This document shows positions 2,715 to 48,544 of a stretch of 64,000 nt of DNA, piece after piece. The notes below the pieces were generated by a model. It searched no databases and was not told the origin of the DNA. It saw only the letters and a program-made list of their open reading frames with translations. The DNA lies in the NCBI RefSeq assembly GCF_037392515.1, contig NC_090280.1, positions 74,946,504 through 75,010,503 on the forward strand, in the 5' to 3' direction. Every line of letters begins with the position of its first letter. Positions within the stretch are counted from its first letter, which is position 1. The stretch is from Haliotis asinina. Lineage: Eukaryota; Mollusca; Gastropoda; Lepetellida; Haliotidae. A program made the position numbers and the translations under genes.

Positions 2715-3402
2715 ATGGCAGGTGGAGATCAGGGTTTTGCTGAACATCCTTATAGTACCATGGCTAAACACATTCCCCCTGGTTCAAAAACGAACAAACG
2801 GAGACATCTTTCAACATCTTCTGATGATGAAGTCTCTTCAGCAGTAGTGGATTCATGGCCAAGATTCTTGGTCATTGAAACAGCAGATGAAGGTCCATTT
2901 AAATTAAATCCCTTTGCTATATCTATGGGTATCAAAGGTATATGCGGAGAGGTAGCCAACGTTACACGCCTTCGTTCTGGCTCACATCTTGTTGAATGTG
3001 CCCGGAGGCAGCAATCTGTAAACTTGCTAGGATTACAAAATTTCGTTGATACACGGGTTGTTGTCTCTGTGCACAGGACATTGCACTCTTGCAGAGGTAT
3101 TGTTCGTGACCGATCTCGTTGTCTGGCGTACATGACAGAAGAAGAAATTGTTGATGCATTGTTGATGTGCCTCACAGACTGAACAAGAACCAGAGACACA
3201 ATCTAATCCAGGAAAGGTTATTCAGTTGTCAAATAAAGAAAAGAAACAGCTGCGAAGGGCAGCATTTAGAGGTACCATCAACGTCACCAACATCAGTGAC
3301 GGTTCATAATCCGTTTGGACCTCTTGATATGGACGTCACTCCTTCACAACCAGAAGGAGGGAGTAGACTTTCCTCGCGTTCAAGATGCCCGGTTGAACCG
3401 CC
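2715..3402 (+). pseudogene. LINE ORF1, internally deleted
   Basis: The first part (155 codons from 2715, stop at 3180-3182) reads as the RNA-binding ORF1 protein of this LINE type: WPRFLVIE near residue 48, then FKLNPFAISMGIKGI, VTRLRSGSHLVEC, NFVDTRVVVSVHRTLHS and a MTEEEIVDAL end. In the family the CCHC zinc knuckles would follow, but none is present. Instead the sequence jumps to the linker and tail (NPGKVIQLSNKEKKQ onward) in another frame, reaching a stop just before ORF2. That is best explained by a deletion of several hundred bases taking out the knuckles. ORF1 normally coats element RNA. The start chosen is the first ATG in the open frame; an ATG at 2760 is also possible. Confidence 0.8.
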
Positions 3403-6089
3403 ATGAACAGCACTATTAATTTTATTCAATGGAATTGTAGAGGCCTTCGGAATAATTTTAATGATCTACAATTATTAGCTCAAGATTTTAATCCATCGGT
3501 TTTTAGTTTACAAGAGACACACTTGAAAAGTACTGATAACTTTGAATTGCGTCGGCACAATTCATTCCATTCCAGATCACCTTTTCGCTTTGCTCTTTGC
3601 ATAGTTCTCCTTCTACAGCTCTTCGACAGTCCGATCTTCAGGATCTCTTTGAACAACTTCCTCGACCATGTATAATCATGGGTGATCGTAATGGACACAA
3701 TCCTTTGTGGGGAAGTACCGACACCAACAATACAGGAAAACTCCTAGAGGATTTCATTTCAAACAATAACTTATGCACCTTTAATGATGGATCTGTCACA
3801 TATTTACATCCTGGTTCGGGAACTTATTCTGCACTCGATCTGTCCCTCGCAGACCCAACTGTTTTTAACGAATTTGAATTTGAATGGTCAGTTCACGATG
3901 ACCTGTGTGGAAGTGACCATTTTCCATCAATACTTTCCGCTATAAATCAGAGTGATGACTCATCTGCCACAAGGTGGAATTTTGATAAGGCTAACTGGCC
4001 ATATTTCAGATAATGTGTGCTGACAACTTGAACTCTGCCGTTTTTGTTAAAGTTCCAGATCCGATTCAGTTGTTCTCTGACAAACTGAAAAGTATTGCCG
4101 ATGAAGCTATTCCTAAGGCCTCTGCTAAAGCACATGTTCGTAGACCATGGTTTACTGACAGTTGCAAACAAGCTAGGAAGTGTAGAAAGAAGGCAGAAAA
4201 ATATTTTCGCCACCACCCTACAGTTCATAATTTAAATATTTTTAAAATAAACAATGCCAAGGCTCGACGTACTTTTAAACACAGTAAACGCCAGTCTTGC
4301 AAGACCTTTGTATCAAATATTAATTTACGTACACCAAAGACAAAGGTGTGGAACATGGTACAGAGAATCAAGGGTAAAGGTAGAAATTCTAGTGTTCATC
4401 ATCTAAAAGATGGACCCTAGGTTTTAACTGATAAAACTGACATTGCAAACAAGTTGGGTGAAACTTTAGCTAGACATTCTTCTTCCTCAAACTATAATAC
4501 AAAGTTTCAGAAATATAAAGATCAACAAGAAAAACGTAATATTAACTTTCATTCTGATAATGGTGAAGATTATAATGAACTCTTTTCACTACATGTGCTG
4601 AATACTGCCCTAGCGCAAGCTCACGATACGGCAACAGGTGCTGATAATATCCACTATCAGCTCCTGAAACATTTACCCAATACATGTCTTGAAACTCTTC
4701 TGAACATTTTTTATCATATTTGGACAACAGGCCAATTTCCTCCGTCGTGGCGTCAAGCCTTTGTTGTACCAATACCTAAGCCTGGTCGGGATCATACAGA
4801 TCCATCAAACTACAGACCTATTACACTAACTACCTGCGTTTGCAAGACCATGGAACGCATGGTCAATAATAGATTAGTGGGGTTTTTAGAATCCAATAAT
4901 CTTATTACTAACATCCAATGTGGTTTTCGGAAAAATAGAAGCACTATTGACCATTTGGTTCGACTAGAATCATTTCTTAAAAATTCCATTGCCCATTACC
5001 ATCATGCTGTATCAATCTTTTTCGACCTTGAAAAAGCTTATGATGCAACATGGAAATATGGTATCTTAAGAGATTTACATGATTTTGGTTTGAGAGGCCG
5101 TTTGCCTCATTTTATATCACAATTTGTAGTAGGCAGACAATTTCAAGTTCGTGTCGGATCATCCCTGTCTGACCATTATAATCAGGATCAGGGGGTTCCA
5201 CAAGGCAGTATTTTGTCTGTTACTTTGTTTAGCATAAAAATCAATAGTCTCTCGGAAGTATTACATGATTCCATAGATGGGTCATTGTTCGTGGTTTTTT
5301 CATGTCGTGGTAAAAATATGCATACCATTTACAGACAATTACAGATGTGTTTAAATAAAATTCATAACTGGTCACTTGAGAATGGATTTAAGTTTTCACA
5401 GATGCAAAACGGTATCTTCTCGACTGCCAGATCATACCTCAATTTTCACAGCTGAAGCAAACGCTTTATTAACAGACTTAAAATATATCAACAAACATTC
5501 CAAATATAAGCAGTATATAATCTTTTCAGACCCTTTTTCGTGCCTTCAAACTATTAAGGGTCTTTCTACCAAACATCCACTTTTAGTAGAGATTATTGAA
5601 TTGTACAATGATCTTGCTACTGGTCAATACGACGTCGTCTTTTGTTGGTTACCCAGCCACGTTGGCATTTCTGGGAACACACTTGCCGATCTTGGTGCCA
5701 AAGCAGCACTCACCAAATCTATGACACCACTTCTTATTCCATACTCTGATTATAAAGATTTCATCCGATCTTACATCCGGGATCTCATGCAGAAGAATTG
5801 GGACACCCAGATAGGTATCAATAAATTACATGAGATTAAACCCCACATTGGTTACACCTACTTGGGTTGTCAGTCTAGATTTGAAGAGGTCATCATAAGG
5901 CGATGTCGTATTGGCCACAATACGAAAGATGAGGATCATCCGTTCTGTATCCCTTGTGATGAAAGAATCACAGTCAAGCATGTCTTGATTGACTGTGTTG
6001 AATATTCCATCACAAGGGATAAGTATTTTAAAACACGAACCATGAAGGATCTTTTTAGTAATATTAATTATCATTTATCGCATATTTAA
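3403..6089 (+). pseudogene. LINE ORF2 (endonuclease, reverse transcriptase, RNase H), several deletions
   Basis: The ATG at 3403 opens with INFIQWNCRGLRNN and the catalytic glutamate in LQETHL, as in APE endonucleases. The middle of the endonuclease is missing. It resumes in another frame with IIMGDRNGHNPLWG and GSDHFP, which holds the essential histidine. The reverse transcriptase follows (4454-5455) with ATGADNIHYQLLK, PIPKPGRDHTDPSNYRPI, FFDLEKAYD and QGVPQGSILS. The catalytic FVDD box is gone: SLFVVFSCRGKNMH stands where family members carry FVDD before CRGKNMH. Just after it, a large deletion fuses the thumb to the RNase H domain at SSRLPDHTSIFTAEAN, which also removes the first RNase H aspartate. 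FSDPFS and WLPSHVGISGNTLAD remain. The C terminus keeps CIPCDERITVKHVLIDC. This copy cannot reverse transcribe. Confidence 0.88.
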
Positions 6090-11213: not shown

Positions 11214-11220
11214 TATATAA
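11214..11220 (+). promoter_or_regulatory. Candidate TATA box of SABATH gene A
   Basis: TATATAA sits in a block that is well conserved in all three units (also 37,116 and 49,992). It lies about 210 bp before a candidate splice donor and 470 bp before the start codon, so transcription would begin near 11,245 in a non-coding first exon. Position and conservation are seen; function is inferred. Confidence 0.5.
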
Positions 11221-11427: not shown

Positions 11428-11623
11428 GTAAATTAGTGGATTGATGGACTGAGAATTATTTATAATCACAAGATAGCCACAAGACCAGGTCATTTGACCA
11501 GGTGATATAGTTTTGCATTTATCTTGATATTCCCATCCATAATCAGAATGGCATAACTGTGTGAGCTTGACAGGAAATAGTAGTAAGACATATGAGTAAA
11601 AATATGATTTGTCTTTTCTTCAG
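11428..11623 (+). other. Candidate intron in the SABATH 5' UTR
   Basis: A donor ctg|gtaaat at 11,428 and an acceptor after a pyrimidine run (gtcttttcttcag, ending 11,623) bracket about 196 bp. The acceptor block is present in all three units; the donor is kept in A and C, and in B reads cta|gtaaat. This would join a non-coding exon to the coding exon 59 bases before the ATG. Confidence 0.5.
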
Positions 11624-11682: not shown

Positions 11683-12906
11683 ATGCTCATGCGGATGCTC
11701 TATTCGGGAATCAGAAGACATCTACGAGTTCACAATGGATTTACAGCTGTCCCAGTGAGATACTACGAAGATCCTCATAAAGGATATCGCCCATACTGGA
11801 ACAAAGGTGAAGGAAATTATGGATCAACACTCGGAAAACAAAATGTTCTACATGTCGAAAGAGCGCGAGAAAGCATTCTCAGCTTGGTCAAAACCATTCC
11901 GTTTACTGACAAGGACTCGGCCTTCAACATTGCCGAGTATGGTGCAGCTGATGGTTCCACTTCCATGGCCATTTTCGGGGAGTTGTTAACGACTCTGAAA
12001 GATCACCATGGCCCAAACACCCAATTCCAGGTCATCTATGAAGATTTGGAACTGAATGATTTCAATTCCCTCTTCAAACGTATGTCAGGGATCATCCCTG
12101 ATCCCCCGTCCTACCTCCCAGAAATGGACAATGTCTATATTCTAGCTTCAGGAACAAACTTCTACAAGCAGTGTCTACCTTCAAACTCAATCCATTTCAT
12201 GATGTCGATGATATCTGTCCATTGGCTGTCAAGGACGCCAACCACCTTCAAAGACTCAATTTACGAAGATGACCAGAGTTGTGCTGAGGAGACGGCTGAA
12301 CTACACAAGCAGGCTGAGTTGGACTGGGAAACCTTCTTACTAAGAAGAAGTAGAGAACTAAAACGGGGAGGCTTACTTGTCGTAAGTGTCTGCGCTGAGT
12401 TTGAGGACAGAGACACTGGACAAAATAGACATACTCAGTCTTCCTTTGTGGGAGTACTGAATGAAGTATGGAAGGAATACAGTGAATCTGGAAAAATCTC
12501 CAAAGACGAGTTTGTCAATACAAATATGTCCGCTTGTTATCGCACCATGAAGGAAGTGAGAAAACCGTTCGATGACAAAACGTCACCCGTTTCCAGGTCT
12601 GGATTAACTCTCTTATCAGCTGAAGCTGCCGTGAACCCTGATGTATTTTACAACATTTGGAAGGAGAAGAAAGACAAAGCAGGAATTGACGACAGGGAAG
12701 AGTTTGCTAGGATGTACGTGTCCGCCCACAGGAACTGGAGCAACAGCACTTTCATGAATGGCCTCTCAGATTCCCGATCGCAGGAGGAGAAGGAGCAGAT
12801 AGTTGATGGGTTGTATGGCGACGTGAAGGAACGTTTGTCAAGGATGAACCCCAAAGTATTCAAGGACGATGGGAAGATGATATATATCGTGATTAGAAAG
12901 AAATAG
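11683..12906 (+). CDS. SABATH-family SAM-dependent carboxyl methyltransferase, intact copy A
   Basis: Encodes 407 residues in one uninterrupted exon. The family, best known from plants (salicylate, jasmonate and theobromine/caffeine enzymes), transfers a methyl group from SAM to a carboxyl or ring nitrogen. Visible motifs: KGEGNYGSTLGKQ at 41-53 (SAM/substrate loop), FNIAEYGAADGSTS at 81-94 (motif I), VIYEDLELNDFNSLF at 117-131, ASGTNFYKQCLPSNSIHF at 155-172, HWLS at 180-183 (the family's substrate-pocket tryptophan), and FLLRRSRELKRGGLLVV at 218-234. The end IYIVIRKK resembles the family's usual C terminus. Length is slightly above the usual 350-390. The first 28 residues lack acidic residues and are rich in Arg and hydrophobics, so a mitochondrial presequence is possible. 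The ATG at 11,683 is the first in frame; ATGs at residues 3 and 5 are alternatives. The substrate cannot be told from sequence. It is the only copy here able to make a full protein. Confidence 0.92.
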   Translation: MLMRMLYSGIRRHLRVHNGFTAVPVRYYEDPHKGYRPYWNKGEGNYGSTLGKQNVLHVERARESILSLVKTIPFTDKDSAFNIAEYGAADGSTSMAIFGELLTTLKDHHGPNTQFQVIYEDLELNDFNSLFKRMSGIIPDPPSYLPEMDNVYILASGTNFYKQCLPSNSIHFMMSMISVHWLSRTPTTFKDSIYEDDQSCAEETAELHKQAELDWETFLLRRSRELKRGGLLVVSVCAEFEDRDTGQNRHTQSSFVGVLNEVWKEYSESGKISKDEFVNTNMSACYRTMKEVRKPFDDKTSPVSRSGLTLLSAEAAVNPDVFYNIWKEKKDKAGIDDREEFARMYVSAHRNWSNSTFMNGLSDSRSQEEKEQIVDGLYGDVKERLSRMNPKVFKDDGKMIYIVIRKK

Positions 12907-13029: not shown

Positions 13030-13170
13030 ATAGTAATGTCTAGTACTAAACATCTATCCGTGGAATATTCAAGGGATTCACTCGCACACTTAGACACTTA
13101 TTTGACAATTACGTAATACTAAGCTTTCCATCCCAGCACGAAGGGTAAAACGCGTCGGAATATACTTTCC
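13030..13170 (+). mobile_element. LINE endonuclease fragment (CR1/RTE-like), shortened
   Basis: Matches 38,692-38,930 of unit B, where the endonuclease start is better preserved. Here about 120 bp of the middle are missing. It runs straight into Tc1 sequence. Confidence 0.65.
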
Positions 13171-13685
13171 GAAAGAATGCACGCTGGAGATTGCCAATCT
13201 TCTATTGTCAGGCGTCTGAATGTCAGTCTGAACGAGATATCACGGCTTGCAGGACTTGGCAACCAAACAGGTAGAACAAATGACCGTCCCCGTCCCACAG
13301 ACCTCGAGTTACCACTGTAGCCGAAGATCGGTACATCTGGGACTACACTTGCGTGATCGTACTGCCACGAATGAGAGCACAACATCCAGGCTGCCTTGAC
13401 TTCTTAGGATATCCGGTCAAACTGTACGGAACAGGTTGGATGAGATTGGTTTGAGAGCCAGGAATTCGACGTCGGGCCCGTGCTACGTTGTCACCATGGC
13501 GCTCAGTTTCTTTGTTATCTAAATGTATCCCTTGGTTGTACATGTATTGACATTACTTCTTTCAAACTGGTGTAAAACGCCATGCACTAAAGTATATTTG
13601 TGGAGGAGTTATACATATTTGAAAATACAACATTATCGCAATAGCTTTATGGCTTATGCGTTTCCTTTTCGGAATAGTATACTTA
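13165..13685 (+). mobile_element. Tc1/mariner fragment
   Basis: Begins at 'gaatgcacgctggagattgc' and reads as the paired helix-turn-helix start of a Tc1-like transposase (RRLNVSLNEISRLAG, then RPTVTT and AEDRYI-like text) with frameshifts. It then passes, after a large loss of the catalytic domain, to the element's 3' end near 'gcttatgcgtttccttttcgg', an inverted-repeat-like terminus. The related terminus at 60,026 reads 'ctgtcccaaaaaagaaacgc'. Confidence 0.75.
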
Positions 13686-13919: not shown

Positions 13920-14420
13920 GCGAGGCTTATCCCGTATGGATTTGATGCAGCATGTGAAAGATGTCTTGTGGAAATATACTTGGGTTAGCGAGGAAGTAAG
14001 ACTTTGCTTGGATGAGCGAGTGTTCTTTCCAATTAAAATCAGCTTCAGTGTGCAGGTCTCAGCCGTTTTACCTGAGACAACTGAGTCCTCCTGTTTCAGG
14101 TCTCTACTTTGTCTCAAGCGCGTCTTCCAGTAAAACTTCGTTTGTTTAGTTCACTCGTTTATCGGTTCTTTAGGTGATATTTTTTTTTTTTGTAGAATGG
14201 GTCTTTAAAGATAACACTGATCTTCTACAGCTTCTGCACAGTTGTTAGTTTCAAGGTACACACTGCTTGTAAAAGTCTGTTTCAGAAGTCATTGTCCATT
14301 GTTTATGAAGGTGGAAGGGCGGACCAGGAATGGCTCCTTGAAACGATACATCTATAAATCTTGATAGAGGAAATAGAAGTGAGTAATGAGGACATGAACT
14401 TGTTGTGGGCGATATGTAGC
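13920..14420 (-). pseudogene. SABATH paralogue 2, inverted fragment
   Basis: On the minus strand two short stretches match the methyltransferase in order: SETDFYKQCVP (compare SGTNFYKQCLP of copy A) at about 14,253-14,290, and RQSRDLKQEDSVVS (compare RRSRELKRGG) at about 14,075-14,117. The intervening part, including HWLS, is deleted. The segment matches 59,420-59,720 on the plus strand better than it matches copy A, so there is a second SABATH subfamily. The same inverted fragment follows copy B at 39,760-40,055. Confidence 0.75.
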
Positions 14421-28597: not shown

Positions 28598-28740
28598 CGC
28601 ATGAAATGACTGAAGAAGAGAAGGCAAAAGCCAAGGCTCCAATCACACGGTTACTCACGTGGAAGGTCCTCCACGAGAAGATGCCATGGGCACTCTTTCT
28701 CTTGCTAGGAGGCGGGTATGCTCTTGCTAAGAGCTGTGAG
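28598..28740 (+). pseudogene. SLC13 exon with lost acceptor and repeated donor
   Basis: Reads MTEEEKAKAKAPITRLLTWK then VLHEKMPWALFLLLGGGYAL and AKSCE, the 'LLTWK..QEKMPW.I.LLLGGGFALA' signature of SLC13. The acceptor is ctacCG where unit B keeps ctacAG at 45,970-45,975. The end of the exon and its donor gtagga are the first unit of a 73-bp tandem array. Confidence 0.85.
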
Positions 28741-29010
28741 GTAGGATCTTTATTGTCAAAGATGCATGTTTGTTTGCTTGGCCACATATAATGCTCTTGC
28801 TAAGGGCTGTGGGGTAGGATCTTTATTGTCAAAGATGCATGTTTGTTTGCTTGACCACATATAATGCTCTTGCTAAGGGCTGTGAGGTAGGATCGTTATT
28901 GTCAAAGATGCATGTTTGTTTGCTTGGACACATATAATGCTCTCTCTAAGGGCTGTGAGGTAGGATCGTAATCGTCAAAGATACATGTGTGTTTGCTTGT
29001 ACCTATAAAA
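28719..29010 (+). repeat. 73-bp tandem array duplicating an exon end and splice donor
   Basis: Four units, each with 'gctcttgctaagggctgtga', the donor gtaggatc and about 50 bp of intron. Donors fall at 28,741, 28,814, 28,887 and 28,960, exactly 73 bp apart. The unit B array has six. Confidence 0.9.
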
Positions 29011-31830: not shown

Positions 31831-31909
31831 TAGTAGGAATCTGTTCAAAGTGTATAATTCACCGTTTCGAAACTATTATTCATATTGTTAATCTTCTTTG
31901 TTATATCAC

Positions 31910-32110
31910 GCCACGTTATATGGTGAATGTTTAGCAATGACATTTGAATTTTTGGCCCGCAGGATGCAATCCGGACACTTCCTGTCACATGTGACCTGAA
32001 TTTGTCAATAGCTTGTTCAGTTTTTCTTTTCCTTGGTTTGACAGAAAGAAACAACGGGCGACTCGCCAAACTGTTACTGACTTTGCAATGTATGGAGATA
32101 TTCATTTCGT
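31910..32110 (+). repeat. Repeat R, copy 3
   Basis: First of two R copies in tandem at the head of unit B. Minus-strand reading shows EQAIDKFRSHVTGSVRI. Confidence 0.7.
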
Positions 32111-32459
32111 TAAACTGGACACACATAATAGAATGCAATACAATTCAATTTAATAAATTCAAAATGGTATATCAAGTTACCATGTCTCAGCGAGTTTGAT
32201 ATGAATATTTATCATATGTCCGAGTTAAATATCGAACGAGAACGTAGTTCGATTTTGATATCTAACTTGGGTGAACTTTTCTTTGAGCCTGTCTATATCA
32301 GCTTTTTTCTGCATGAACTTTTAGTCCTTGTCAAAAAGATTATTTATTATAAAAGGGTACTTATTATGCATAAGCGTCTTTAAGTGTATAATTCACATGG
32401 TAATTTCGAAACTATTATTCATATTGTTAATCTTCTTTGTTATATCTCGCCACGTTATT

Positions 32460-32665
32460 TGGTGAATGTTTGGCACTGACATTTGAATTTGTGGCCCATA
32501 GGATCTCTTGGTATCCAACCGGACACTTCCTGCCACACGTGACCTGAATTTGTCAATGGCTTGGTCAATCTTTATATTCCTTGGTTTGAAAGAAAGAAAC
32601 CACGGGCGACTCGCCAAACTATCACTGACTTTGCAATATATGGAGATATTCATTAGCTGTTCAAC
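32460..32665 (+). repeat. Repeat R, copy 4
   Basis: Second tandem R copy of unit B, about 550 bp after the first, with the intervening sequence also duplicated. Minus-strand reading DQAIDKFRSRVAGSVRL. Confidence 0.7.
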
Positions 32666-32687
32666 ATTGCTAAACTGGACACAATGC

Positions 32688-32742
32688 AATACAATACAAT
32701 ACAATACAATACAATACAATACAATACAATACAATACAATAA
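32688..32742 (+). repeat. (ACAAT)n microsatellite
   Basis: About ten pure ACAAT units. Units A and C have only 'caatacaattcaattt' at the same place, so it expanded in B. Confidence 0.95.
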
Positions 32743-33059
32743 ATTCAAAAAGATATAATACGTTGCCATGTCTCCTAGAGTTTGATATGGAGATTTATCC
32801 TGTGTCCGAGTTAACTATCGAACGAGAATGTAGCTCAATTTTGATATCTAATTTGGGTGAGTGATAAATCTGAATATCACAACCAACTGACGAAACTGCT
32901 CATGACATTTCGACGGACATGACAGTGCACGTGGAAACATGGCCGTCTCCATCAAGTTTACCTCATGAGTGAATATGGAAGGATAATTTCGGACATACAC
33001 ACAAAGTACTTAGCAGAATATAGCATGAATGGAACATTTAAAACCACCATCAAAACTGT

Positions 33060-35690
33060 AATTTAACACAGATAACTTAGCAGAACAGTGGAACAGATGG
33101 AAACAAAGGATGGACTTACATTTGAAGCTAGGCATGCCAAAGGCAAATGAAGAGAAAAACCTAATACGTTCTTGTATATTATAGGACAGGACGGTAGAGA
33201 CATTCATAACACTTTACATTTGAACAGTCAGGAGTCAACAAGATAGATGCTTTAACCAAGTTTCGTGAATACTGTACTCCAAAACAAAACGTTACCACTG
33301 AAAGACATAAGTCCAATGCAAGATCTCAAAGCAAGGGGAATATTGATAAATATATGAATATGCGACTGAAAATTGCTAAAGGCTGCAAGTTTGGAACAAT
33401 TCAGAATGAGCTAATCTGAGATAGAATAGTCTGTGGTACACATTAAGAACGTGTGAAGGAAGGTTGTTAGATAGAGTTGAAAATCTTACTCTAGAAGTAT
33501 TTGTAAGGCAGATGAGAAATCCTTGAAACAGATGAAACAGTTTGAGCATGAAAACAGAGTCTTGTTTGTGAAGAATACATATTTAAAGAATAATGGTGCA
33601 AGATCAAAGACTTATGACAAAGGTAACCCTCAGAAATCAGAAAAACAGAAAGTAACATTCAAATATAGAAATTGTAAAAATATTCATGGTGAACGTGAAT
33701 GCCACGCGTATGGGAAAAATTTGCTTAGTGCAAAAAAATTAACTACTTTCAACAATGTTGTACAAATAGAAGTAGACTGTTTCACGAGCTGAAGGAGACG
33801 GAAGGACAATTACCACAATCAACAGGAAGCCTTTTTGGCTCGGTAAGTCTGAAACTAATGAAAATGTTATGTTTATATCAAGTGTAATTGAAACATAGGT
33901 GGTTAAAATTGATATTTTCATAATTTGCCAGCTGATGGTATGATGTTGAAGTTTAAAGTGGTTACAGGCTCGCAAGCCAACATCATTCCAGGCAAGATTT
34001 CCAAGAAATTCCCATTCGAAAATCATCTGTTAAACCAAAAAGTTACAATGGTGATATAATACCACAATTTGGGAAGTGCAAGCTTTTAAGTGGATACAAT
34101 GAATTAGAACTTCACATTGTGGACACTGAACAAATTCCTTTACCGAGCTGCAAAACTTCACTGTAACTTAACATACACAAAATGAAGAAACTGTAGATGG
34201 GTTTTCTGAAATCTTCTCGGGACTTGGGTGTCTCAATGAACCTTATCACATTGAGAAAGATCCCTCAGTTCCACCTGTGATACATCCTCCACTTAAAGTG
34301 CCTACTTCACTCAGAGATAAACCCAAGAAGTCATTGGACAGCATGGTTAAGCAAAGTGGCATTAGAAATTAGAAAGGTTGACCAACCAAAAGACATTTCC
34401 TCTGACAAGCTTCGGATCTGTTTGGATCCAAAACATCTTAATGCTTCAATTATACGGGAACACTTTCAGATTCCCACGATAGAAGAAATATAACCAGAAA
34501 CCTATCTGGGCCTCAACAGTATTCAAAGATTGATGCAAATGCAGGGTGCTGGCAGGTATTGTTAGATCCGCCGTCACAACTGCTCACTACTCTCAACACG
34601 CCTTTTGGAAGGTGACTCTGCTATTGGAATGCCATTTGGGATGAAGTCTACACAGGAACTGTTCCAAAAGAGAATATATCAGAGGTTTAAACTACAGAGG
34701 AGCACGATGCATGCCTAAGATCATTACTGCAGAGATGCAAGCAGATAAACTTGACACTTAACAAATAGGAGTGCAAGTTTGTTGTTGCAGAAGAGGTTAC
34801 AACTCGTGACTTTAAATCAGATCCAAGCAAAATTGAAGACGTCGGGAAAATGTCACTACCTGAAGATAACAATCGAGTTGAAAGACTGTTAGGGTTCATA
34901 AACTATTTGGCAAAGTTCATTCCAAATCTCTCGGAACCATCTCAACCAATGAGACAATTTTCTCACAAAGGATGCATTGTACGTTTGGTAACAAGAACAA
35001 CAAAATGCATTTGAACGGATTGTTGCATATCTTACTACAGATCCAGGTCCAGTGCTCCGGTTCTGTGATGTCACAAAAACAGTTTCTTTGACTTGTGATG
35101 CATCAAAATCTCGGAGCAGTGGGGATTTCAACATGTCACAGCTAGTCCGTATCAGTCACAGTCCAATGGACTTGCAGAGAAATCTGTCCAGGTTGGGAAG
35201 AGAATGCTGGAGAAAGCGAAGGTGGACAAGAAGGATCCTCCGTCAGTTTACTGAAATTACGAAACATACTGACTGATGCCACTGGATCACCTGTTCAACT
35301 TCTCATGTCTCAATTCAGCACTGCCAACAAGTGCATCTCAACTTCAACCTCACATCATCGATCCAGAAGAAATCCAACATAAGCTCAGTAAGAAACAGAA
35401 AACTCACAAGAAATAGTTTGATCAGATTTCTAAAGAATTGTCAAAATTGGAAGAGGAAGATGTAGTGAGAATACAAGAAAAAAAGCAGATGGAATCCACC
35501 AGTAGTTGTTAAACAAGACGATGCTCCTCGATCGTATCAGATACAAACATCTGAAGACAAAGTATACTTATTGTAGATATGTTAGTGTAGAATCAGATCA
35601 CAAACCACTTGAATCCATTCTCAAGGAACCTCTCATCTCCACTGCTCAGGTTACAATGGATGTTGCTGAGGCTACAGATTCGATGGGTAT
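33060..35690 (+). mobile_element. Ty3/gypsy fossil, unit B
   Basis: Same fossil as at 7,507-9,600: gag-like, zinc-knuckle, protease and reverse transcriptase parts in order, plus about 550 bp at the 3' side (35,140-35,690) not present in A. It is broken with many interruptions, more than in A. Confidence 0.75.
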
Positions 35691-35756
35691 GTGGTAACTG
35701 TTGAACTGTGATGTTTCATGTGTATGGTGTATGTATATGTGTGTTTCATAATCATA

Positions 35757-37110
35757 AGTACAGGTTTGCTATTCTGTGGACTGTTAAAGTCTAAATTACA
35801 CCTATATCCATAAGTAGAGTTAGGAATACTATGTAAACAAATAATCAGCTTTTGTGGTCATTCTGGAGAGACTTTAACCATGATCACAAATTTACCTATA
35901 TCATTAGTCGTGGGTTAGCCCTATCGGCAAGTAAATGCGCGCTGGCCTGTTGATGTACAAATCAGTTCTGTCAGTTAAGTCATGTTGACTGGTCGTCTCT
36001 TGTGGGCGGTTAAGCTAAGAACAGAACAGACCACTCACAGATGGAAGTCAACGCATCGGTCATGATATCCGTTTAGAAGATTCATGGTGGACTGTGGGAT
36101 CGGGCGACAAATATTTGGGTCGGTAGCATCAAGGGAGGACAAATAAAATATGGGTGAAGAGATAGAGAAAAGGTTTATTCTTGAAAAAACATTTTTGCAT
36201 GTGTTCCTTCTCAGTATCGCCAACTCACATTCCTTTACAAACAATGCGAACAAACATTGACAACTCTGCAGTTGAAAGAAAAGATTATATGATAATGGCG
36301 ATATAAATCTCCTGTCTCCGTGCACTTGTGCATAAAGCTGAATTACCATGTGTACGTTAGACACGGGTCTATTGTGACAACCTCTTGACAATATCTGTAA
36401 CGTGACTCCAGCTGCACACCTAACAATCACTTGCAGCGTCTGCTGCATATCACATACCTTGTAGAACCTGCGCCGGTGACGACGTGTCACATGCACATCG
36501 TCTGGTGAACGTAAGTAATGTTAATGCATATTGATTATGGTTCTAAAAAGACAGCCTAACGTGTGATGGGTTGGATGGGAACAGTATTCGGAGAGCTATT
36601 GTATTTACTTTCATTCTTTAATCATATTTTCATTACCTCTCATCAGTCTGACTGTATAAATGCATTTCTATATATTAATACACACTTGGGTATTACACAA
36701 GATTGGAATAGTTTGCCTTTGAAAATTGTTCATATGGTAAATCTGAGTGAATCTCAGCTAGGGTTTCAGACTAAGTTTGCTGTTACTTTGCATATGATTA
36801 AGCGTAATATTACATCAAGGACCAGGTGTCCATCCAAATCTTCCTACTGTGCGGAAGGTTCTTGGTGGGTTCTACCTGGCAGCGTTTCCTGGAGAAGTCC
36901 CATTCGCTATCCCGGCTGCGTGTAGAGGGGGCAAGGCTGGTGATAAGCCCTACCAGCCTGACTGTGCCAGGATCCCCCGAACCCTCTGTGCTACATTTTC
37001 ATTTTAATCTGTAAAACATAACAATAGCTATTTACAGAGCGCCCATATCCACGTACGTATGCATGGGTTAGCATGATATTACTGCTGGATGGTTCCTGCT
37101 ATTGTTGGTG
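35757..37110 (+). other. Leader region of SABATH copy B
   Basis: Collinear with 9,575-11,210, with a deletion that removes about 190 bp around A 10,610-10,800 and most of dispersed repeat 3. Minus-strand open frame at 36,035-36,496 is not kept in A or C. Confidence 0.5.
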
Positions 37111-37115
37111 CTGTA

Positions 37116-37122
37116 TATATAA
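37116..37122 (+). promoter_or_regulatory. Candidate TATA box of SABATH copy B
   Basis: TATATAA in the same conserved block as at 11,214, so the truncated gene kept a promoter. Confidence 0.45.
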
Positions 37123-37584
37123 CTGTTCATCCTACCCTCACCTTTATTTGTACAACACGTTGGTCATCAATGTCTCGGCCAGGTTTCTAGTGCGCACGGA
37201 AGAAGCACTTCTCCAGAGCGAATTGCAGTAACTTAGGCTACTGCCCCTCTATGCTCCATGAATATTTGGGTCTCTTTTGCGAGTGGTTGGGGAAAATTTG
37301 CTTTGGGATTGGTCGGGGAAATTTACTAGTAAATTAGTGGATTAATGGACTGAGAATTATTCATAGTCACAAGATAGTCACAAGACTGGGCCATTTGGCC
37401 AGCTGATACAGTTTTTATTTATCTTGATATTCTCATCAATAATCAGAATGGCATAACTGTGTGAGCTAGACAGGGAATAGTAGTAAGGCATTTGAGTAAA
37501 AATATGATTTGTCTTTTCTTCAGGCAACAATTCCACAGCCGGATTGCATACGACTCTCTATAATTTGAAAAAAAAATCATCAAA

Positions 37585-38496
37585 ATGTTCATCCGGATGC
37601 TCTGTTCGGGAATCAGAAGACATCTACGAGTTCACAATGGATTTACAGCTGTCCCAGTGAGATACTACGAAGATCCTCATAAAGGATATCGCCCATACTG
37701 GAACAAAGGTGAAGGAAATTATGGATCAACACTCGGAAAACAAAGTGTTGTACATGTCCAAAGAGCACGAGAAAGCATTCTCAGCTTGGTCAAAACTATT
37801 CCCTTTACTGACAAGGACTCGGCCTTCAACATTGCCGAGTATGGTGCAGCTGATGGTTCCACTTCCATGGCCATTTTCGGGGAGTTGTTAATGACTCTGA
37901 AAGATCATCATGGCCCAAACACCCAATTCCAGATCATCTATGAAGATTTGGAACTGAATGATTTCAAATCCCTCTTCAAACGTATATCAGGGATCATCCC
38001 TGATCCCCCGTCCTACCTCCTAGAAATGGACAATGTCTATGTTCTAGCTTCAGGAACAAACTTCTACAAGCAGTGTGTACCAAAGATCTCCAAAGACGAG
38101 TTCGTCAATACAAATATGTCCCTTTGTTATCGCACCATGAAGGAGGTGAGAAAACCGTTCGATGACAAAACGTCACCCGTTTCCAGGTCTGGATTAACTC
38201 TCTTATCAGCTGAAGCTGCCGTGAACCCTGATGTATTTTACAACATTTGGAGGGAGAAGAAAGACAAAGCAGGAATTGACGACAGGGAAGAGTTTGCTAG
38301 GATGTACGTGTCCGCCCACAGGAACTGGAGCAACAGCACTTTCATGAATGGCCTCTCAGATTCCCGATCACAGGAGGAGAAGGAGCAAATAGTTGATGGG
38401 TTGTATGGCGACGTGAAGGAACGTTTGTCAAGGATGAACCCCAAAGTATTCAAGGACGATGGGAAGATGATATATATCGTGATCAGAAAGGAATAG
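37585..38496 (+). pseudogene. SABATH methyltransferase copy B, in-frame deletion
   Basis: Open for 303 codons, but residues 167-270 of copy A (312 bp) are missing in frame: KQCVP is followed directly by KISKDEFVN. The loss takes out SNSIHFMM, the HWLS pocket motif, and the RRSRELKRGGLLVV strand, so methyl transfer is very unlikely. Outside the gap it differs from copy A at only about 16 residues, so the duplication is recent. N terminus MFIRMLCSGIRRHLRVHNGF keeps the basic, presequence-like character. Because the frame stays open it could still be translated; I call it a pseudogene on loss of the active-site half. Confidence 0.85.
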
Positions 38497-38539
38497 TCAT
38501 CCTAGGCAAAATGAAAGAAGATTCTGCTTATATATAAAG

Positions 38540-38592
38540 AGCATGAACCCCAAAATATTCAAGGACGATGGAAGGAGATATATATTCTGATT
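38540..38592 (+). repeat. Duplicated tail of the SABATH reading frame
   Basis: 'gaaccccaaaatattcaagg' and 'acgatgg' repeat the MNPKVFKDDG codons of the gene end 120 bp upstream. A longer version follows copy C. Confidence 0.8.
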
Positions 38593-38691
38593 ATTATTCT
38601 GAACAGAACGCGGCATAGGGACACGGTCATGGTTCGGTGAACATCATGCGGGTTTCCGAGTACATGGGACTCACTGAGCAGGACACTAGTA

Positions 38692-38930
38692 GCAATGTCT
38701 AGTATTAAACATATGTGCATCTATCCGTGGAACATTCAAGGGATTCACTCGCACCTAAATGACTATGATTTTTCATTGTTCTGTAAACAGTTTGAAGTGT
38801 TTGCTTTAATTGAGACCATGCTTCAGGATTGTGAGATAATTAGACTCTTATTTGACAATTACGTAATACTATGCTTTCCATCCCCAGCACGAAGGGTAAA
38901 ACGCATCGGAATATACTTTGCGATACGGAA
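38692..38930 (+). mobile_element. LINE endonuclease N-terminal fragment (CR1/RTE-like)
   Basis: Reads MCIYPWNIQGIHSHLNDYDF then SLFCKQFEVFALIETML and PSPARRVKRIGIYFAIRN, the start of an APE endonuclease with its catalytic Glu in ALIETML. Its own ORF is cut off by Tc1 sequence. Confidence 0.8.
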
Positions 38931-39400
38931 CATCGCCATTGAGAATGCACGCGGGAGATTGCCAATCTTCTATTGTCAGGCGTCTGAATGTCAGTCTGAA
39001 CGAGATATCACGGCTTGCAGGTCTTTGCAACCAAACAGGTAGAACAAATGACCGTAACCGTCCCACAGTTACCACTGTAGCCCAAGATCGGTACATCTGG
39101 GCACTACATTTGCGTGATCGTACTGCCACGAATGAGAACACAACATCCAAGCTGCCTTGACTTCTTAGGATATCCGCTCAAACTGTACGGAACAGGTTGG
39201 ATGAGATTGGTTTGAGAGCCAGGAGATTCGACGTCGGGCCCGTGCTACGTTGTCACCATGGCGCTCAGTGGCTTTGTTATGTATCCCTTGGTTGTATAGA
39301 CATAATCTTCTTTTAAAAGTTGAGGAGTTATTCATATTTGAAAATACAACATTATCGCAATAGATTTCTGGCTTATGCGTTTCCTTTTCGGAATAGTACA
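38925..39400 (+). mobile_element. Tc1/mariner fragment
   Basis: Reads RRLNVSLNEISRLAGLCNQT, TVTTVAQDRYIWALHLRD: the paired helix-turn-helix DNA-binding part of a Tc1-like transposase. The DDE domain is absent; the 3' part reaches 'gcttatgcgtttccttttcg'. Same insertion as at 13,165. Confidence 0.8.
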
Positions 39401-39759
39401 TGCAATACTTAAATAGATGCATTCCCTACATACTCCTCTGTTCGCATGATTGTAGCCCATGACAGTTAGGCTGCCCGTATTTGTCTACGATATCATCAGT
39501 GATGATCCGGAGTAGGATTTGGCTTCTTTAATCAATGCTGAAGCTAAACTCAGTCATTGACTGCCAGAAGTGAGAGCTGGTCAGGTTTCAAACACGAGTC
39601 GGTGGGGGGTCCTTGCAGAGATGTAAAACAGGTAAACTGGTCTAAATCTCAGCAAGGCTTATCCCGTATGGATAACAAACATGCCGATTTGCTACAGTAT
39701 TTGAAAGATGCCTTGTAGAAATATACTTACGTTAGCGAGGAAGTAAGGTTTTGCTTGGA

Positions 39760-40055
39760 TGAACGAGTGTGTATTCCAAGTAAAACAGCTTCAGTGTGCA
39801 GGTCTGAGTCGTTCACCACAAACTCAGAGGTTTTACTTGCGACAACTGAGTCCTCCTGTTTCAGGTCTCTACTTTGTCTCAAGCGCGTCTTCCAGTAAAA
39901 CTTCGTTTGTTTACTCCACTCGTTTATCGGTTTTTCGGGTGATATTTTTTTGTAGAATGGGTCTTTAAAGATAACATTGATCTTCTACAGCTACTGTACA
40001 GATGCCAGTTTGAAGGTACACACTGCTTGTAAAAGTCTGTCTCAGAACCCATTGT
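39760..40055 (-). pseudogene. SABATH paralogue 2, inverted fragment, unit B
   Basis: Minus-strand SETDFYKQCVPSN near 40,000-40,050 and an RSRDLKQEDSVV-like stretch near 39,850-39,880. The same inverted fragment as at 13,920-14,420 with further loss at its right side. Confidence 0.75.
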
Positions 40056-40544
40056 CCATTGTAAGTAATCTGGATAGTATATTTCTGGTACTGTGACAGT
40101 TTTTGACATGAAATAGTTACACGGGATAATAATGTGAAAATCTAGTCAGTATTTATCGTCTCTTGCAGGGATGCATCCAGTTTTTCACATTACTGGGTCA
40201 GCTGGCCCGATGATTAGAGAAAGTGGGCCAACACCTATGGGAACAAGGGACAATCTGTTTTATAATTTTGAATGACGTCACTATTTGACTACGATACTAA
40301 AAGTCAGTCACGTGATCATACTCACTCACGAATTCTAATAGTGCATTTGCATCGTTTGACCATATACACCATGGAATCTTAATGATTGGTATCTGTATTG
40401 TATTTGTTCAAGTCTTTGTTGGATTGTTCGTTGTTTAACGCCACCTTCAGCAATATCCCATTATGTGATGTTCAAGTAACATCACACTACATGAATGACG
40501 TGGTCATTAGTAAAGTATTGTTCATATTGTTTATTATATCTAGC

Positions 40545-40750
40545 AAGATTATTTCGTTAATGCTGGTCATTTCAATTTGTGGCCAATATGATCCCTGTCC
40601 GTAGAATGCATACCGGACACTTTCTGTGACACGTAACCTGAGTTTGTCAATGGCCTGTTCATTTTCTCCTTTTCATCTCCCTTGAAGTGAACGAATGTAA
40701 ATATCCACGCTTCGCCAAAACATCATAGATTTTGCAATGTATGCAGACAT
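40545..40750 (+). repeat. Repeat R, copy 5 (solitary)
   Basis: Partner of 15,515-15,725. Here the shared 'acacacataatagacc' end that links R to the gypsy leader is still visible. Confidence 0.65.
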
Positions 40751-40829
40751 TCAGAAACTGGTGAAAGGATATATATTTCTAAACTTGACACACATAATAG
40801 ACCAATAATAATTATGGTTATTATAAAGC

Positions 40830-41035
40830 GTCCGTTTCCAAGCACTTGTGTATGCCCCAAAGACGCTAATGCTTACGGTAAACGATGCCGTCGGTGAGGC
40901 GCTGGGAGGTTAACAGTTATAGGATTTTCCCCACCGGGTATCAGTTCACTGCATAGTGGGACAGAGGCAAATCATGAACATGCTTACTTCCCTGGGTGAG
41001 ACCCCATGTGTCACAATTCTTCATTGTGAGGCAGG
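40830..41035 (+). repeat. Dispersed repeat 3
   Basis: Longest copy, from 'aagcgtccgtttccaagcac' to 'cattgtgaggcaggag'. Confidence 0.7.
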
Positions 41036-41499
41036 AGTGAAGTCATAGAGATTTCAGGAATCACTTCTGAGGAATCTGAAGAGTCAATAATCAAACACGG
41101 CCAAAGACTCTCCGAGACGAATGCAGCTTAAGGTCAACTGATTTGTGACCTGGGCTGTATGCACAGCAAAACACGCCACAACTAAAAGCGGTTTGAGAAA
41201 TTTAATGACCGACAGTGCGTTCGAAACGGGCACCACGGGCATATATCGTCTAGTGAATGTAACTTCATGTAGGTACACCTTTATGTATATTACTGAATTT
41301 AATGTACTTCTCACCAGGAAACTGTCATTAGAAACCTTGCCTGCTACATCTTCCATGCCTCAAATCTTCGCCTCAAAACTCTTGTAGAGTAAAGGTATAT
41401 ATCACTGTCTTTCCCAAAACTTAGACATCCATTTATTAGACGGCCATAAATTACATTCTAAGGACGCAGATTACTTAAGCAACACCCTTTGCTGAAATG

Positions 41500-41945
41500 G
41501 AACAATCCTAATTGGTGTTTCGCGCCGAGAAGACCGAGTTTGTATTGATAGAACAAAACAGGTATACCCACCCGAAAACGCCTCTAGAAGACAGGGTTTG
41601 TAAATTTTGTTGCAGCAAATCAGTTGAAGACGAAGTAACCTTCTCACCAGGTGTTACTTTTATTCAGATATCAGATACAATTAATGGCAGGATATGTCCT
41701 CTTATGCTCAGTCTATATTTGTGTTACATATGAAAGATTTGTGACGCCCTTTGCCGCGAAAATAACAAATGTCCATAATAAGTTTTAGTTCCGGACAATA
41801 ATTATCAGTGTACATTTTAATATCTTAATGTTTTAGTCTGATATTTGTGGATTTGAAGTAGTTATCGTATCTCAAGGGCCGTAGGGTCTACACTATTTAT
41901 TGGGAATTTTATGCGATTTTAGCATGTCAGTTGTATGCCACGGGG
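41500..41945 (+). mobile_element. LINE ORF2 C-terminal fragment, unit B
   Basis: Reads RYTHPKTPLEDRVCKFC then CSKSVEDEVTF. It keeps the DE pair lost in the unit A copy at 16,440. Confidence 0.7.
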
Positions 41946-42261
41946 TACGTTCATAAACTATTTGTCTTTTTGTTGATGAGTAAATGATGTGAACTCTACA
42001 TTAAGTTTAAAGATGCATGATATGTTTTCATTTAAAAATTTCTGTATTTCATGTTCCAGGAATGATGCTGTCTTCCACTGTTTAAAGCCTATTAGTACCA
42101 GACAACCGAGTATTTTACTGTGTGAATTTAACTATGTTTCATATTGGCTTTTACAATTTAAAAAACTTAATAATATGCATTATTCCCATCCCTGTCATTA
42201 TAATACAGTTATAACTTCTTAGTGGATTCACGAATCATCAATACTCAACTACATACCCTTA

Positions 42262-42370
42262 TAACCCGTGAAGATCTGGCATAGAACAGGTCCTCAGCAA
42301 CCTATGCTTCTACAAAAGGCGACTATGGTCATGGTGATCTGGTTGACACGTGTCATCGATTCCCAATTGC
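42262..42370 (+). mobile_element. SINE-1, 5' half
   Basis: Unit B partner of 17,294-17,412, ending at the same point. Confidence 0.7.
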
Positions 42371-42757
42371 AATTGTAATAATTACATGTTATGTCCTTGA
42401 TAAACGCTTATTTCAAGATATAACTATTATTTTTAGGCAAATGTTGTGGAAATGCAGTGTTTGATATGCATGACATCATCAACATAGTATCGTATTCATT
42501 ATTTACTGTTTGTTTATCTTATCTTATATATCTCAGTTGAACTTGTCATAAATATGTTGAAGGAACAAAAGGTCTTGTCCCATTGATTCTGTGCTGCTCC
42601 ACTGTAAGAAATGGGTCTCAGCTTGATGATTAGTTGTGCATGGAACAGGAAATGTTGTTGTGTTGATTTCTGTAAGATATGGCTGTCTAACCTTGGGTCT
42701 CCTGCATATCACCCATACCTTGTTGTAAATGTACGAGTACCTTGTACTGTTATGTAT

Positions 42758-42885
42758 CCAGCAAAAAAATGAGCGGGGACACCCAAAATGGGGTTCACAC
42801 ATTGTGTCCATGTGGGGAATCGAACCCGGGTCGTCGTCGTAACAAGCGGATACTTTAACCACTAGGCTACCCCATATTTATACTA
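42758..42885 (-). mobile_element. SINE-2 (tRNA-derived)
   Basis: Unit B partner of 19,812-19,975; its 3' part is cut by the deletion that joins 42,750 to it. Confidence 0.75.
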
Positions 42886-43164
42886 GACATTTGCAGCTTC
42901 TGTGGTACGTATTGTTATGTGTACTAAATGATTACCACATGGTAAAACCCTGGCAGTGACACTAGACTCCAAATACATTAAAGTATATCAACATTTGCTC
43001 GATTACAGTGAAGATTTCTATAATATTGGTTAGGTTTGGATGCCACCACTGATGGTCATAGTGGTGCCATATCTCCTCCTGTCAATCACGTAGGAATTGA
43101 GCATCACTGATCCCAGACATGTCTCCTAATTCGATATTATTCATAACAGATAACAGAGTGTGTG

Positions 43165-43320
43165 AGTGAGTTTAGTTTACACTACACTCGGCAATATTCC
43201 AGCTATTTAGTGGCGGACCAGACAATCAAATGATCAACAGCATGAAAATAGACCTACGCAACTGAACCGAGTCAACGAAGTCCGCGAGCCTGACCACCCG
43301 ATCCTGCTAGTCACCTCTAA
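43165..43320 (-). mobile_element. SINE-1
   Basis: Unit B partner of 20,235-20,420 with an internal loss. Confidence 0.7.
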
Positions 43321-46097
43321 ATCCATAGAGCTGACGTTTGGTTCAGCATTTATGTTTTAGACCGTTTAAATACGTATTCGTTCTTTCTAGGTTAATATGT
43401 CATAGCACAGCCAGGGGCCTTGATCGTCCCACTTATTCAGACCGATTTGGGCTGAGTACAGTAAACAGTTTGTGTGCACAGTAAACAGACCCGTAGGAAC
43501 GTTAGGGTTTGTGAGGATGGTTGGGGTGGGTAGGGTTCGGGGTTGGGGGTCGCGCCGCCCAACAGTTCTGTCATAAGACGGCCATTTGTAAACGACGTTT
43601 CACACAAATACTTTGAATCTTGACGAGTGACGGAACAGACAATCTTGAGGCACGATATGGACGTTATTAGAACTAAACCCGATCCGTCAATTTTGTCTTT
43701 CACCTGGTGCGTTCACCGTGTACGTGTAAGCAAGGCCAGTTTTGTATTTGTTTTGGGAGGTTGTTATTGTCCAAGGTCAGCAGAAAGCATGGCGTCGAGC
43801 TCTGATTACCTAAAAACGATCCAATTTATCGAACTGCTGATGAGGTTGTATAAACGACAATTTATAACGATAATGGTATCACAATTCATGGCAACAACAT
43901 GCTGTTCCAGACTATACAACGCCCGTGTATTGAGTCCCCCGTCAACTTTGCCTCCTGGATGGCCTACGGATTCCCTTTGTCTGCTGTCTTCCTCATTGTC
44001 TGCTGGTGCTGGCTCAACATTTTGTACCTCAGATGCAAGTAAGAATATTTGGCCATTATCGTTTGTTTACGAAGCACTATGCAATCTTCTATCTACATGA
44101 CGACCGTCTGGAAATAATCGAGACTGGGTAACACATGTCAGTGATTGACATCATGAGCATTGTTCTTGGGGTAGGCTTACATGCATCAAGAGAGGCTGAA
44201 AACACATTAGTCGCCCCTAACGACACCATGTGGTGCTGAAGACCAATTCTGGACCAGGCCCAACGTTGCATTTACTGTTGGAATATTTTTGAGTGCAACG
44301 TTAAACACCAAATCAACTATCCGACCTCTTTTATTATGATGCGACACATCACCACTCTCCCAGCACTAAATGTATCTTAAACACTACTATACATTATAGC
44401 ATTTACTTTATTTTTCACCATGTTTGGGTCAGTAAATGGATACGATATATACGGAACGTGACAGTTAAAAATAGAAACATTGTTTAGCTAATAGTCTTTC
44501 ATGCCATCGAAGAGGTGTCCTAGTTTGGCACAAAGTAAGACAGCTTTCGTCACTTGGAAATGCCGCGCACTTATCTCAGAATGGAATAATGACCACCTGT
44601 TTAATTTTATATTGCAGGGGTCTTCTCCGCTTGTTTGAGCGATGACCCTTTAAGAGAGATCCAGGCCCAGAATGTGAGAAATGTCATCGTGACAGAGTAC
44701 AAGGAACTTGGCCCCACCACGTGAGCTTTCCTCTTTCTTACTCTCGGGTTCTGTTTCTTCCTGGAGGAAGTGTACAGCCATAGCAATTGTTCCAACACAA
44801 CGTATTCGCAACCTATTGTAATGAGACTTTACTCACAGGATTATATGTGTTTTGTGTTATGTGTTACACAATCAATTTATAGTGGGTTTGAGAAAAAGAT
44901 AATTAAATGAAACGTATGGGTCTGGTGCAGATGTTTGCCTACAACTGAAGTCATAAAGTCGTCAACTTGTCCAGAACGTGCTATCAGCAAGCTTACCTTG
45001 CCTTGAGCTCAAGGCCGTTCAATGAAAAGGATTCTGCTTTCTGATGTTTCTTGTACATAGCGGGTATTTCAGAAGATTTCCCACTGGTAAAATATTTCAA
45101 CATGCTGCATATTTTCCTGCAAATGTATACTGCATTGTAATGTGCTTTGTCGTCAGGTACGCCCAGGCCAATGTCATGGCCTTATTTGGTCTACTGGTTA
45201 TTTTCTGGGTCGAGAGATCTCGGAGGAGTTGGTGGCTGAGGAGATCTTTTTGACCATGAGTAAGTTTTCAAATTGTAACGTAACGGTCTGTTTCATTTCT
45301 ATTTCTTTTGAAAACACCACAAGAAGCATCTCAGCTATAACCACAAACCTGTAGAAACTGAACTCTATGTGACATTTTCAACAGCTCAAATTGACCCGCA
45401 TTCTCTCGATATTATATACCGAATCTGAATAAAACCCCAAACATGAACTTGTAAGAGACATTTTCTTTGCAGCTTGGTAAAAGATTCGACCCCTGCAGTT
45501 TTCTTAGCAGTGCTGCTGTTTGATTTTTCCTTCCAAACTACCACGTGTCTGTTGTCTTCGGAAAAACTGTAAGTTTGGTTATGAAACACTGGACCTTGTC
45601 TGTCACACTTTGTATCTCTGTAAAACAAGCTTTGTGTGTTCGAAATTATAAATGATAGGCACTTACGGACACCTACTTTAGGTAGATGTTGGCTATAACT
45701 TTCAAAACCTTCTTAGAGTCGAACAGTTTTTGGAGATGGAATGGGATTTTATCCGTAGAAAATACAGAAAACGCTCAAAGTGCTTACGTACTTGTAATTT
45801 AAGAAGGGGTGCACCATGAAATAAATAACAGTTTTGCAAGGAGTTTGTCTAAAAAATTTAATTGTTTAGGTTTAATTTTACAAAACATTTGGTTTTGCAA
45901 CTTTAGCAGAAAATGTCTGTAGACTCTGTACTAAACGCCAGCCCTTGAACTCCTTCAACTGTACTTTTTCTACAGTGTATGGAATGACTGAAGAAGAGAA
46001 GGCGGAAGCTGAGGCTCCAATCACACCGTTACTGACGTGGAAGGTCCTCCACGAGAAGATGCCATGGGCACTCTTCCTCCTGCTAGGAGGCGGATAT

Positions 46098-46535
46098 GCT
46101 CTTGCTAAGGGCTGTGAGGTAGGATCTTTATTGTCAAAGATGCATGTTTGTTTGCTTGGACACACATAATGCTTGGTAAGGGCTGCGGGGTAGGATCTTT
46201 ATTGTCAAAGAAGCATATCAGTTTGCTTGGACACACATAATGCTTGGTAAGGGCTGTGGGGTAGGATCTTTATTGTCAAAAATGCATGTTAGTTTGCTTG
46301 GACACATATAACGTTCTCTCTAAGGGCTCCGAGGTAGGATCTTTATTGTCAAAGATGCATGTTTGTTTGCTTGGACACATATAATGCTCTTGCTGAGGGC
46401 TGTAGGGTTGGATCGTTATTGTCAATGATGCATGTTTGTTTGCTTGGACACATATCATGATGCTCTTGCTAATGGATGTTGGGTAGGATCTTTATTGTCC
46501 AAGATGCATGTTGCTTGGACAGATATAATGCTCTT
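46098..46535 (+). repeat. 71-76-bp tandem array duplicating an exon end and splice donor, unit B
   Basis: Six units with donors at 46,119, 46,190, 46,261, 46,334, 46,407 and 46,483, against four in unit A. The fifth donor reads ggttgg rather than ggtagg. The array grew or shrank after the units separated. Confidence 0.88.
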
Positions 46536-46640
46536 GCAAAGCCTGGATGTAATAAAAGCGTTGCTCGTTACGGTGAAGGCGGGTTCGATTCCTCACATGG
46601 GTACAAAGTGTGTGTCATTTCTGGTGTAATTTGCTGGGAG
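46535..46640 (+). mobile_element. SINE-2 (tRNA-derived)
   Basis: Partner of 29,030-29,165, with 'gcgggttcgattcctcacat' B box. Confidence 0.7.
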
Positions 46641-47029
46641 CTTTTGTTTGTTTGTTTGTTGTTTTTTAACGTAAATCATAACAGAAAAGTAACTAGTTCT
46701 ACTTTGTGTTTATTTGAATCCGTGGCTGCTGCTTCTGATTATCTGTTACATGTGTGCTGCAGCAACAGAGGTCACCAGCAACACAGCAACACCCGTCATG
46801 CCGATCCTGTGTTTTCGTCAGTGGCGTAGTGTGTACATAAATGACGGGATAGCCTATAATTGGTTCATCAGGAATTAAGAAAGTTGACTACAACATGTGT
46901 CCATGTAATCATTATACAAATGGGACCGTACAAATTCAATAAAATGACTTAAAACAATTTAATTCACTGATTCACGATTTTCTTAACACGAAATCAAAGA
47001 ACTTTACGAAGTTGAAACCTTTCCCTTCA

Positions 47030-48540: not shown

Positions 48541-48544
48541 CAAT

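Follow-up and report, generated by a model that had tools for sequence, protein, structure and literature searches.

An intact SABATH/FAMT-type methyltransferase gene within a tandem array in Haliotis asinina

The methyltransferases of Pfam family PF03492 (SABATH/FAMT) are known already. To our knowledge, the characterised SABATH enzymes are almost all from plants, with the fatty acid O-methyltransferase FAMT as their bacterial counterpart; the presence of PF03492 in animals is probably visible already in protein databases, and no title on an animal SABATH/PF03492 enzyme was found among the matches listed from the CC-licensed PMC literature. Animals have a carboxyl methyltransferase of Rossmann fold in the insect juvenile hormone acid methyltransferase (7ec0). 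Loganic acid methyltransferase uses Q38, H162 and W163 to hold the carboxylate of its substrate, and either of the changes H162A and W163F leaves negligible activity (PMC10420828). FAMT is reported to be active on C8-C12 acids and on their 3-hydroxy acids (PMC9744835).

The window analysed here, a stretch of 64,000 nucleotides from Haliotis asinina (assembly GCF_037392515.1, contig NC_090280.1, positions 74,946,504 to 75,010,503), encodes a further member of this family, which we call copy A.

11683 to 12906, + strand: copy A, intact PF03492 (SABATH/FAMT) methyltransferase open reading frame (reading frame, Pfam, model and fold matches)

The frame occupies exactly these positions, with 407 codons from ATG to TAG. 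Its product matches PF03492 (Methyltransf_7) over residues 77-403 with 113.8 bits (E 1.3e-32), far above the curated Pfam cut-off of 29.8 bits, and the frame is therefore not a product of chance; no NCBIfam family was found for the protein. There is no intron within the coding region, which runs uninterrupted and to which bacterial homologues align over residues ∼40-406. Among solved structures, mycobacterial FAMT (5f2k/5f2n/5f2o) is the closest to copy A both by sequence, with 5f2k at the top (2.2e-20), and by fold (TMt 0.87); the plant SABATH structures follow it by sequence, at 4.8e-12 at best.

An AlphaFold2 model of the protein, calculated from alignment A2 with 47 bacterial homologues picked by hand, has a mean pLDDT of 85.2 and a pTM of 0.83, with a confident core and with residues 1-46 below 50 in pLDDT. 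Foldseek searches with this model place FAMT chains at ranks 1-5 (TMt 0.86-0.87) and plant SABATH chains at ranks 6-29 (TMt 0.75-0.83), all 29 being family members, before a sharp drop at rank 30 (TMt 0.54); as judged by AlphaFold2 and Foldseek, copy A is predicted to adopt the SABATH/FAMT fold. A viral structure library gave weak matches only, with target TM-scores of at most 0.56 among the 50 matches listed, mostly to generic methyltransferases and capping enzymes.

Both FAMT and copy A have a Gln seven residues after a Tyr, whereas FAMT is only 24% identical, has Gln-Trp where copy A has His-Trp, and forms its own group in our best trees. The plant carboxyl methyltransferases 1m6e, 3b5i, 8wwq and 6c8r (TMt 0.75-0.83) and the N-methylating plant members 6lyh, 8uzd, 2efj and 2eg5 share the Pfam family and fold of copy A, and several plant SABATH structures carry its His-Trp motif, but they are 16-22% identical to it and are not its nearest group in the best trees. 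The insect enzyme 7ec0 appears at Foldseek rank 47, with a TMt of 0.57 and 10% identity.

The tandem array and its contents

Self-comparison shows the window to be a tandem array with units of ∼15-22 kb, containing three recent gene copies, one in each of units A, B and C, and four older fragments.

7034 to 29564, no strand: tandem unit A (self-comparison, approximate limits)
31838 to 46979, no strand: tandem unit B (self-comparison, approximate limits)
47026 to 51834, no strand: partial tandem unit C (self-comparison, approximate limits)
37585 to 38496, + strand: copy B, a 303-codon open reading frame with an in-frame 312-nt deletion (comparison with copy A)
50480 to 51698, + strand: copy C, a pseudogene with two frameshifting indels (comparison with copy A)
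1716 to 1981, - strand: older fragment, residues 307-396 (tblastn E 1.6e-22; profile search iE 3.6e-5)
13974 to 14343, - strand: older degenerate fragment downstream of copy A (tblastn E 6.6e-4)
39580 to 40109, - strand: older fragment downstream of copy B (tblastn E 5.4e-8; unit-to-unit DNA similarity)
59343 to 59623, + strand: older fragment, residues 81-145 and weakly 193-240 (tblastn E 1.1e-7, second piece 0.17)

Copy B is without exactly 104 codons (167-270), with its reading frame kept, and is very unlikely to be active because the deletion removes the H180-W181 motif and the model strand 226-238. A 110-bp tandem duplication at 51639-51837 spans the 3' end of copy C, whose final ∼19 codons therefore occur a second time in a degenerate version. 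A profile search recovers the fragment at 1716-1981 and misses those at 13974-14343, 39580-40109 and 59343-59623, and these three of the four older fragments are thus weakly supported, by tblastn and by the DNA similarity of their surroundings. The fragments at 14 and 40 kb lie in the equivalent place of units A and B and are therefore older than that duplication. At motif I the relic at 59343-59410 (+ strand) carries Asp (FNIADLG) and the three recent copies carry Glu, so that Glu may be a recent change in the cluster.

Comparison of 360 stop-to-stop frames of at least 55 residues with the window itself revealed no further recognisable gene in the units; of the frames in the units, two were also run against Pfam, and one of them gave a retroelement match below threshold. 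Neither Rfam, at gathering thresholds, nor ARAGORN reported anything in the window. Two retroelements were found with Pfam.

2715 to 6089, + strand: broken LINE (endonuclease 3597-4010, reverse transcriptase 4454-5452)
61250 to 63998, - strand: LTR-type retroelement pieces (RNase H 63360-63998, integrase zinc-binding domain 62902-63417)

The LINE also gives a weak, sub-threshold RNase-H-like match at 5376-6086, and a related reverse transcriptase stretch lies near 54225-55167; two further open reading frames of the LTR-type element have no Pfam match. The types of these elements suggest an animal, perhaps a mollusc, as host. Units A and B share a tandem repeat of ∼71-73 bp (28718-28999, 3.9 copies, and 46101-46512, 5.7 copies). 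Another repeat, which by eye we take to resemble a decayed Tc1-type element, lies downstream of copies A and B (13090-13540 and 38840-39296) and recurs inverted at 59764-60736 (- strand).

The first-pass annotation had described an intact 407-residue SABATH-family gene, lacking coding introns and set amid animal repeats, and the analysis bears out an intact PF03492 gene without coding introns among retroelements. In place of the lone, plant-like gene that it pictured, there is a tandem array that includes disrupted copies and relics, and the closest relatives found are bacterial (at most 36% identity). The cluster most likely evolves by tandem duplication and birth and death, with copy A as its one member observed to be intact.

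Bacterial relatives and the origin of the gene

A motif scan of 84,980 species genomes gave 176 pattern matches, 106 of them relatives; of these 80 were kept, 64 being mycobacterial by title, with 24-33% identity to copy A in the best segment. Protein searches within single phyla found matches in 4 of 398 genomes in Pseudomonadota (the phylum of G002 per L012; seed included), and in the seed genome only in Acidobacteriota (that of G003 per L031; 1/199) and Verrucomicrobiota (that of G001 per L005; 1/194). Follow-up of the Pseudomonadota matches gave 22/150, 11/61, 2/148, 4/4 and 9/289 genomes, seeds included. The best relatives are G895, with 36% identity over animal residues 40-406 (E 7.4e-58), and G1164, with 35% (E 2.1e-57). 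As judged by sequence, the nearest relatives among the genomes searched are this Pseudomonadota subfamily, not the plant enzymes.

The subfamily (G895, G1164, G827 and others) shares features of its C-terminal region with copy A; it differs in having no Arg-rich N-terminus and in a motif that is either His-Tyr or His-Trp. No NCBIfam name was returned for the three bacterial members scanned, and a relative was encoded in none of the 78 and none of the 4 pattern matches in viral contigs. Bacterial neighbourhoods were viewed in eight regions, with 20 neighbouring open reading frames scanned against Pfam. In L125 and L131, from one bacterial family, the methyltransferase gene is flanked by a histone-deacetylase-like gene on one side and by a 4HBT thioesterase gene on the other. 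No neighbour is common to the other six regions among the scanned frames, and no substrate was therefore inferred from neighbourhoods.

Phylogenetic analysis, proposed in the earlier annotation as a check, did not put the protein in another methyltransferase family. A first tree, of 64 rows, pairs the animal protein with 30 Pseudomonadota rows as its sister group (support 98/97), and this placement recurs in a second tree, also of 64 rows (99/93), to which three more plant rows were added and from which the long-branch rows L113, L114 and L091 were left out. The eukaryotic rows are the animal protein and the plants, with no other animal, fungal or protist row; the plant rows (three in the first tree, six in the second) are partial sequences as printed by HMMER, from nine plant sequences. 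Both trees leave out L081, L082, L083, L085, L086, L090, L092 and L122 (duplicates, alternative fetches and fragments), 55 of the 80 motif-scan loci and those Pseudomonadota follow-up matches to which no locus was assigned. The animal branch is long (2.05 in the first tree, 1.87 in the second), and its composition is flagged as odd. AU tests reject neither the joining of the animal protein with plants (p 0.075 and 0.386 in the first and second tree) nor that with FAMT (p 0.067 and 0.377). Bacterial affinity is thus the favoured placement of copy A, and not an established one.

Two accounts of origin can be set against these data. A Pseudomonadota-like methyltransferase may have entered the animal lineage by an old transfer, later acquiring a presequence, perhaps a leader intron, and then duplicating; we entertain this tentatively, and it is compatible with a functional enzyme. 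The sister position in both best trees is consistent with it, as are the E-values, which reach 7.4e-58 in Pseudomonadota against 4e-30 for FAMT-type loci and 4.8e-12 for plant structures at best, and the patchy bacterial occurrence (4/398 genomes of the Pseudomonadota phylum). The AU tests nevertheless do not reject placement with plants or with FAMT, the animal branch is long and of odd composition, and nesting inside bacteria is not something that trees with one animal and no fungal or protist member can reveal. The other account, likewise possible without being probable, is that an old eukaryotic SABATH gene was inherited vertically and lost its introns, possibly by ancient retroposition. 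The absence of a coding intron speaks for this, and so does the failure of the AU tests to reject grouping with plants, whereas the best trees do not join the animal protein to plants and no poly-A tract directly follows the copy A stop codon.

Constraint on copy A, its leader and its N-terminus

Between copies A and B there are 11 synonymous and 17 nonsynonymous differences (dN/dS 0.44, one-sided binomial p 0.034), between A and C 21 and 42 (dN/dS 0.57, p 0.032), and between B and C 8 and 26 (dN/dS 0.95, p 0.52), these being small numbers, drawn from sequence common to the pairs, to which gene conversion could contribute. Divergence is also lower in the coding sequence than in the 5' flank, at 28/909 against 38/489 for A-B and 63/1212 against 66/487 for A-C. 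The pattern fits purifying selection on copy A and relaxation in the broken copies, although the signals are weak.

It is unlikely, on this evidence, that copy A is a young pseudogene which has yet to acquire a lesion, in a cluster that is dying. Two of the three recent copies are indeed broken and the older fragments are degenerate, but dN/dS is below 1 for A against both other copies and not for B against C, and copy A retains an intact frame, the motif residues, the TATA element and the acceptor-like site. Contamination or very recent transfer is hardly credible, and nothing was found in its favour: the copies sit in tandem units among retroelements with non-coding flanks common to the units, they lie alongside relics of differing age (one present in units A and B alike), and the bacterial relatives found here are at most 36% identical over the core length.

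The reading that we favour, by a little over even odds, is that copy A is a functional nuclear PF03492 (SABATH/FAMT) gene encoding a SAM-dependent carboxyl O-methyltransferase, possibly a mitochondrial one. Three features were noted upstream of copy A and at its 5' end.

11214 to 11220, + strand: TATATAA, candidate TATA box (present in all three recent copies)
11610 to 11623, + strand: splice-acceptor-like site, TTTTCTTCAG followed by G, with AG at 11622-11623 (conserved across the three recent copies)
11683 to 11766, + strand: codons 1-28, Arg-rich and acid-free, candidate mitochondrial presequence (composition and length relative to bacteria; function inferred)

Donor candidates for a leader intron are weak and not well kept in copy B, and a 5' UTR intron upstream of copy A is for that reason only plausible. 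A coding upstream exon spliced on to the copy A frame was considered and dropped, as the frames of the aligned leaders disagree between copies.

The first 28 residues of copy A include five Arg and no Asp or Glu, a charge pattern matched by 0.5% of whole-protein shuffles, and the maximal hydrophobic moment of the N-terminus is 0.64, a value given with no control for the moment. The acid-free pattern is kept in copy B; copy C has one Asp there. Of the 30 Pseudomonadota rows, 29 offer an in-frame ATG no more than 45 residues upstream; most of these ATGs lie 8-16 residues ahead of the conserved MKGxGYYS, and many follow a Shine-Dalgarno-like motif, so that the N-terminus of copy A is longer than the bacterial ones by roughly 25-30 residues. 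Shorter bacterial rows, begun at the ATG closest upstream of the match, went into alignment A2, the model and the trees, and this affects only the N-terminal fringe. The N-terminus thus resembles a mitochondrial presequence, and both its composition and its greater length fit mitochondrial import. A mitochondrial-type N-terminus and a TATA-bearing leader had both been proposed at first pass, and both proposals agree with the features listed above.

Proposed chemistry and its implications

In the mechanism that we propose for copy A, SAM would be bound in the Rossmann core, at about residues 80-240, and a small or fatty carboxylic acid would be held by H180, W181 and probably Q53. The methyl group would then be moved to the carboxylate to give a methyl ester and SAH, and the basic N-terminus would probably direct the protein to mitochondria. 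For copy A we infer that it is expressed and active, that it methylates carboxyl groups rather than N or S, which kind of acid it takes, and that it is imported into mitochondria.

The H180-W181 pair aligns clearly with the H162-W163 motif of loganic acid methyltransferase. Q53 follows the conserved Tyr46 by seven residues, the spacing of the Gln in FAMT and SAMT, but in the multiple alignment the gaps around it fall differently, so that the pairing is uncertain. Several observations count against carboxyl methylation: the motif-I Asp, present in all 47 bacterial rows, is replaced by Glu85 in copy A; copy A differs at 8 of the 31 columns that are at least 90% conserved in those rows, the motif-I Asp included; and the His-Trp motif is also found in N-methylating family members. 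We still hold carboxyl O-methylation to be the most likely chemistry. As for the substrate, our best guess, by analogy with FAMT as the nearest protein of characterised function, is a fatty acid or another hydrophobic acid.

A more far-reaching picture, which we regard as improbable when all its parts are taken together, is that a carboxyl methyltransferase of bacterial origin entered the animal lineage in the distant past, gained a mitochondrial presequence, and is maintained in a tandem cluster with rapid turnover, where it makes methyl esters from fatty acids or other carboxylic acids. If true, this would represent a bacterial-derived methyl-ester chemistry in animals that is unrelated to the insect juvenile hormone acid methyltransferase. 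As an intact and apparently constrained gene, copy A provides a concrete protein with which to ask whether animals make small-acid methyl esters through an enzyme of this family, and its targeting-type N-terminus allows the subcellular site of such chemistry to be asked as well; since its intronless coding region may be expressed directly, the question is a testable one.
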